Source: Hoeflea prorocentri | Lineage (GTDB): Bacteria > Pseudomonadota > Alphaproteobacteria > Rhizobiales > Rhizobiaceae | Assembly (NCBI RefSeq): GCF_027944115.1 | Contig: NZ_JAPJZI010000001.1 | Location: forward strand, 3,100,001-3,164,000 | Direction: 5' to 3' | DNA: 64,000 nucleotides | Shown: positions 36,238 to 37,132 of the stretch, in pieces | Layout: each line of letters opens with the position of its first letter | Position numbering within the stretch: position 1 is the stretch's first letter | The notes under the pieces: generated by a model | What the model saw: the letters and a program-made list of their open reading frames with translations, nothing else | What the model was told of the DNA's origin: nothing | Database searches by the model: none | Translations under genes and position numbers: made by a program

Positions 36238-36507
36238 CTAGTGCAACTTGAGCTCACAGTCGACGTGCCTCCACTCCCCGGGACCGATCAGTCTTTGATG
36301 GGTGAACCGGACGGAGTGGATCGGCCCGTCGAGGTTTTCTTCCCAGAAATCCAGAAATCCGTGCAGTTTCGGAAATTCCGGCGCAAGATCATATTCCTGC
36401 CAGAGATAGGACTGGATCATGGTCCGGAAATCGGGCATGCGGTAGTAGATCTGCGCCGTGGTCAGCCCATGCCCGGTCAGCATCAATTCCAACTCGCTTG
36501 CGCTCAT
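36238..36507 (-). CDS. usg: Usg family protein
   Basis: This 89-residue protein has the alphaproteobacterial Usg pattern: ELMLTGHGLTTAQIYYRMPD, QSYLWQEYDLAPEFPKL and LDFWEENLDGPIHSVRFTHQ. The family is named for its place upstream of trp genes in some species. Its biochemical role is unknown. The ATG at 36507 is preferred to an earlier one because of AGGAGCG in front. It is divergent from the DUF2007-like gene, and a CIRCE element lies in the gap. Confidence 0.85.
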   Translation of the reverse strand: MSASELELMLTGHGLTTAQIYYRMPDFRTMIQSYLWQEYDLAPEFPKLHGFLDFWEENLDGPIHSVRFTHQRLIGPGEWRHVDCELKLH

Positions 36508-36604
36508 TCGCTCCTCCGAACGGGTGTGCAACGAATCACAATTGTCCCTCGATTTTCCGTTCGAGGCAACTTTTGGAAAGAATTTATCTTTTTAAATCAA
36601 ATTG

Positions 36605-36631
36605 TTAGCACTCAAAATGTGCGAGTGCTGA
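36605..36631. promoter_or_regulatory. CIRCE element (HrcA operator)
   Basis: TTAGCACTC-N9-GAGTGCTGA matches the CIRCE consensus TTAGCACTC-N9-GAGTGCTAA at 17 of 18 positions with the exact 9-base spacer. CIRCE normally controls groESL. Here the genes on either side encode a DUF2007-like protein (start 36734) and Usg (start 36507). Confidence 0.8.
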
Positions 36632-36733: not shown

Positions 36734-37132
36734 ATGCCGAACCTTGAAACGATTGCAGTCGTCTATGACCTTCCGGCAGCCCTGTGCCTGAAGTCCGCCC
36801 TGGAAAGCCAGGGTATTTTGGTCTTTGTCGATGGCCTCCATCACGCCAGCGTCGACTGGTGGGTGACCGTTGCCCTGGGCGGCATGCAGGTGCGGGTGAT
36901 CGACCGGGACGCCACAGCAGCAAGGGACTATCTGCAACACGTCGAAGGCGAAAGGGTCCCACAATCTCCGATATCGTCTGACATCTGGAGACGACCGGTG
37001 ACAAATGGTCTCTTGCTTTTCTTCGGGATGATGCTGGCCTCAACGCCGATCTGGTTGCGTACACGGCCCCGCGGCCTCAACCAGCCGCCACAGGTTTCAA
37101 CTGATGGGCCGCCGGCAACGACGAGCGGCTGA
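36734..37132 (+). CDS. DUF2007-like putative signal-transducing membrane protein
   Basis: This 132-residue protein starts with a DUF2007-type alpha/beta domain (about 1-75; IAVVYDLPAALCLKSALESQGI and GGMQVRVIDRDATAARDYL). One membrane helix follows near residues 92-108 (GLLLFFGMMLASTPIWL), then a short polar tail. DUF2007 proteins are annotated as possible signal transducers or PII-like folds with no proven function. A strong AAAGGGGGG ribosome site precedes the ATG. A CIRCE element 103-129 bases upstream suggests heat control. Confidence 0.65.
   Translation: MPNLETIAVVYDLPAALCLKSALESQGILVFVDGLHHASVDWWVTVALGGMQVRVIDRDATAARDYLQHVEGERVPQSPISSDIWRRPVTNGLLLFFGMMLASTPIWLRTRPRGLNQPPQVSTDGPPATTSG

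Follow-up and report, generated by a model that had tools for sequence, protein, structure and literature searches.

Upstream of usg, in the window of Hoeflea prorocentri DNA analyzed here (the whole stretch of 64,000 nucleotides), lies an inverted repeat that very probably represents a genuine CIRCE serving this gene, through which HrcA would repress usg and heat would derepress it together with groESL, the site being descended from the operator that stood on the usg side of an ancient divergent groESL|usg pair. The HrcA/CIRCE system is among the best known heat-shock switches of bacteria and is usually tied to groESL in the Alphaproteobacteria. The features of the region are as follows.

36605..36631, no strand assigned: CIRCE, proposed HrcA operator, which in the orientation of usg reads TCAGCACTC-N9-GAGTGCTAA
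36598..36604, minus strand: extension of the CIRCE toward usg, N5 then TG (CAATTTG), the TG at +6/+7 being nearly invariant in relatives
36541..36569, minus strand: predicted usg promoter of the sigma-70 type, TTGCCT (36569-36564), a 17-nt spacer and GACAAT (36546-36541)
36238..36507, minus strand: usg, encoding 89 aa and assigned to the Usg-like family PF06233 (Pfam score 128.9 bits, cut-off 27, E 8e-38)
36734..37132, plus strand: DUF2007-like ORF, 132 aa (PF09413 score 14.8 bits, cut-off 25.7, E 0.033)

The repeat at 36605-36631, TTAGCACTC-AAAATGTGC-GAGTGCTGA, matches CIRCE (taken as TTAGCACTC-N9-GAGTGCTAA with few mismatches) at 17 of 18 arm positions and has a spacing of exactly 9 nt. Shuffled windows give an expectation of 0.02 chance matches with up to three mismatches per 64 kb, and at this threshold the 5.04 Mb genome contains only two sites, the present one and that of groESL, found at 3403238, 54 bp before groES. 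The same genome encodes hrcA at 4230679-4231353 (PF01628, E 9.5e-60). Judged by its sequence, the element is a real CIRCE. About 97 bp separate it from the usg start codon downstream (an ATG at 36507 on the minus strand, with GGAGGA a few nucleotides ahead of it), and on its other side the DUF2007-like ORF begins at a distance of 102 bp. The Usg match covers all 80 profile positions of PF06233. The predicted usg promoter starts some 35 bp past the CIRCE, and its hexamers and their spacing are identical in two congeners (loci L083 and L084); a strict promoter scan did not return it because only 8 of the 12 consensus bases match.

Within the genus, usg was found in six of eight genomes, namely that of the window and five of its seven congeners, and in all six a CIRCE with no more than two mismatches is placed 119-135 bp before usg, as measured from the far end of the element. 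The search for CIRCE upstream of orthologues, proposed from the sequence alone, was thus positive, with 5/5 usg-bearing congeners keeping the element at the same place; named relatives that carry it include Hoeflea poritis and Nitratireductor sp. XY-223. Across the six genomes the left and right arms are 94% and 100% identical, as against 30% for the spacer and 30% for the 40-bp left flank, and the genes upstream of the element differ among congeners. Such conserved arms around a random spacer are read as a sign that selection has acted on the arms of the operator. Since the element is kept with usg in the genus and the DUF2007-like gene is missing from the other seven genomes, usg is taken to be the partner of the CIRCE.

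At the level of the family, AGCA-N15-TGCYAA, which corresponds to the CIRCE geometry, precedes usg in 29 of the 35 loci from the family and the genus, and other spacings of AGCA and TGCYAA from 4 to 30 occur 0-2 times each in these loci (0.02 per spacing in shuffles). A weight matrix trained solely on 44 groESL CIRCEs and applied to the regions upstream of stand-alone usg genes detected a match at p ≤ 0.05 in 26 of 33, 113-169 bp before the usg match. The family elements are mostly weaker than CIRCE, with a left arm that retains AGCACTC and a right arm whose inner triplet is often TGC or GGC, not GAG; many of the usg-side elements outside the genus differ from CIRCE at 4 or more of the 18 positions. 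HrcA was found in 59 of 61 family genomes, so that its presence is uninformative at this level and a sample of the class was used instead.

The TG at +6/+7 is present in 28-29 of 29 family and genus elements and in about 25 of 33 class elements, and the extended pattern (CIRCE followed by N5-TG) has a single occurrence in the window, the genome containing a single mismatch-free copy. Just past the usg-side element, N5-TG followed by an A/T-rich stretch is conserved, also at paralogue loci; this is not part of CIRCE and is no obvious −35 box. As for a TTGA-like stretch at about +5 past the element, its reading as a −35 box was dropped for most loci inspected because no −10 box accompanies it. 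The neighbors of the family usg genes vary, with a divergent acetyl-CoA synthetase gene (acs; identified by our own reading of the sequence) in 16 loci, an ABC-transporter permease in nine and groES in three. The acs-usg intergenic region (L036, L037, L040, L042-L045, L048, L057, and others) contains a second conserved string, ACAACATTAGAC..TGG-like, which possibly belongs to the control of acs.

Among 144 Alphaproteobacteria genomes sampled across the class, 72 contain usg and 112 contain HrcA, and 70 usg upstream regions were read. In 35 of the 70 corresponding genomes groES is directly divergent from usg. HrcA is encoded by 33 of these 35, all 33 of which exhibit CIRCE-like elements, with two elements in 26; in nearly all of the latter the groES side has a good CIRCE, and the other element, on the usg side, is usually weaker. 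The paired operators of groES-linked genomes are separated by about 33-240 bp and could cooperate. A usg element was detected in 44 of 62 genomes with HrcA vs. one of eight without it, where absence was judged from assemblies (Fisher p 0.0024, the kinship of the genomes being ignored). One genome (G165) retains the groES|usg pair, and neither hrcA nor either of the two elements was detected in it. Among the usg genes of the class with HrcA but without the groES link, roughly half show no clear element, which counts against the preferred reading. In another genome, G148, and in the family member G060, hrcA was not detected, yet groESL CIRCEs and usg-side elements are present, which possibly reflects assembly gaps or a divergent HrcA. 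Three tandem CIRCE-like elements are located upstream of usg in an Acetobacteraceae MAG (L100:2185-2368).

Several family genomes carry a second usg, divergent from groESL, with an unclassified ORF of 113-150 aa in between. Six such groESL-linked paralogue loci have a single CIRCE with 1-3 mismatches at the usg-side position, followed by the same +6/+7 TG; because a real CIRCE occupies that position there, the usg-side element and real CIRCE are interchangeable in position. The intervening ORF, which contains the motif EKRAILSSWASDACAVESMPALR and lies between the CIRCE and the usg paralogue in L063, L064 (about 1317-1664), L065, L079, L081, and L060, gave no significant Pfam match and may represent a further heat-shock protein. 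Loss of hsp20 from between CIRCE and usg was rejected as an explanation, as the intervening ORF of the ∼540-bp loci is one of these 113-150 aa proteins, for which Pfam gave nothing significant, and groES is found on the opposite side.

Transcript data bearing on such a locus are available for Mesorhizobium loti, where msl2390, annotated as ‘Usg family protein’, figures in the top ten by heat induction (M = 5.54, compared with 5.79 for groEL), although the paper names usg in a table only (PMC3989490). This gene is close to groES/groEL (mlr2393/mlr2394) and divergent from them by the direction letters of the tags. The induction is that of a groESL-linked paralogue, however, and could reflect RpoH. 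In the literature searched on usg together with HrcA, groESL or heat shock, only this array was relevant, and no description was found of how usg and groESL are linked in regulation and genome position across the class; usg may already figure among the HrcA targets of some compilation. The link between CIRCE and usg put forward by the sequence-only reading holds at the level of sequence; it is no one-off novelty, given the class-wide occurrence with groES|usg synteny and the induced usg already listed by the M. loti array.

The element might alternatively be the operator of another regulator, a palindrome TTGGCAGCACTC..GAGTGCTGCCAA present in many family members that overlaps CIRCE by ancestry or convergence, the version of the genus having drifted to a look-alike. 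Because usg-side elements outside the genus differ from CIRCE to the extent described above, another regulator could read them; this 30-bp palindrome fits many family elements as well as CIRCE does, the inner triplet on the right mostly reads TGC or GGC, and the additional conserved TG at +6/+7 lies outside CIRCE. We nevertheless regard this explanation as unlikely, since the 27-bp CIRCE spacing is kept exactly, the element is found by a matrix trained on groESL sites, and it is nearly missing where HrcA was not found. Furthermore, a real CIRCE takes the same position at the groESL-linked paralogues, and the genus retains near-perfect CIRCE arms against a random spacer.

Control of the DUF2007-like membrane protein by the CIRCE, alone or jointly with usg, is suggested by the short distance between the element and that ORF, and since CIRCE is palindromic its orientation does not exclude such a target. 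This is very unlikely, however: the ORF fails the curated Pfam cut-off of PF09413, the gene is missing from all seven congeners while the CIRCE stays with usg, no copy was found beside usg in any other locus fetched, and the promoter scan gave no recognizable promoter for it. The DUF2007-like gene was rejected as a target on account of its Pfam score, its absence from the congeners and the lack of copies beside usg. That the palindrome is a product of chance, or a relic devoid of present function, is scarcely credible in view of the expectation per window and of conservation that is selective for the arms only, although expression data for Hoeflea prorocentri, which would bear on this, were not found in the material searched. 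Hence the sequence-only reading was correct in its match and spacing and in placing CIRCE before a non-chaperone gene, which proves to be usg; of the two genes it offered, usg is upheld by the retention of the element with it, and the DUF2007-like gene, not found in congeners, is not.

The best reading is therefore that usg is a member of an ancestral alphaproteobacterial HrcA regulon, and that 36605-36631 was the operator for usg in an old divergent arrangement with groESL. The DNA directly shows the element, the fact that it is conserved with usg, the groES|usg synteny, and how rarely the element occurs in genomes where HrcA was not found; we infer HrcA binding, the direction of regulation, and repression by a single operator at a distance or via an overlapping promoter. 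In established HrcA systems GroEL keeps HrcA active, so that titration of GroEL by unfolded proteins leads to derepression. Under normal conditions HrcA bound to the CIRCE would accordingly keep usg transcription low, and when unfolded proteins occupy GroEL the activity of HrcA would be lost and usg derepressed together with groESL. In the Hoeflea prorocentri lineage usg would have come to lie away from groESL with its operator retained. The operator, centered about 84 bp upstream of the predicted usg start, would repress at a distance or through an overlapping promoter that has escaped recognition.

Across the Alphaproteobacteria usg is found together with this switch and frequently with the GroEL genes as well, which makes it look like a neglected component of the response to folding stress. 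The proposed tie between a protein of unknown function and such stress is thereby supported for Usg through its putative operator. More tentatively, Usg may be an ancestral HrcA-controlled partner of GroESL, encoded divergently with paired operators and possibly acting with GroEL as a cofactor, adaptor or substrate. An alignment of 14 Usg sequences contains 18 invariant columns. The predicted model, of middling confidence (mean pLDDT 74.6, pTM 0.58), has the order helix, strand, strand, helix, strand; a fold comparison with the PDB gave no significant match, no solved sequence relative was found, and neither was a description tying PF06233 to heat shock.

A conserved second CIRCE target, in half of the class genomes sampled, provides a directly testable clue to the role of Usg, and the link between usg and CIRCE suggests that the chaperonin stress response has a component that has been missed. 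The HrcA operator itself is of a known kind but points to a class-wide link of groESL with an uncharacterized protein family, not found described in the papers searched.

In comparison with CIRCE/HrcA at alphaproteobacterial groESL, the usg site shares the same 9-N9-9 inverted repeat and an HrcA encoded in the same genome but differs in having a non-chaperone target and in lying some 35 bp before the predicted −35 box. In type-1 groESL operons CIRCE lies just after the −10 box, whereas the usg operator is upstream of the predicted promoter, a difference that counts against the preferred reading. In this respect it resembles the second groESL operons of rhizobia, which have a TTGAAA promoter with CIRCE upstream of it (compare M. 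loti mlr2393/mlr2394) and to which usg is the divergent neighbor in several genomes, although the usg of the window stands alone. In M. loti, groEL and the adjacent usg are both strongly heat-induced (PMC3989490).
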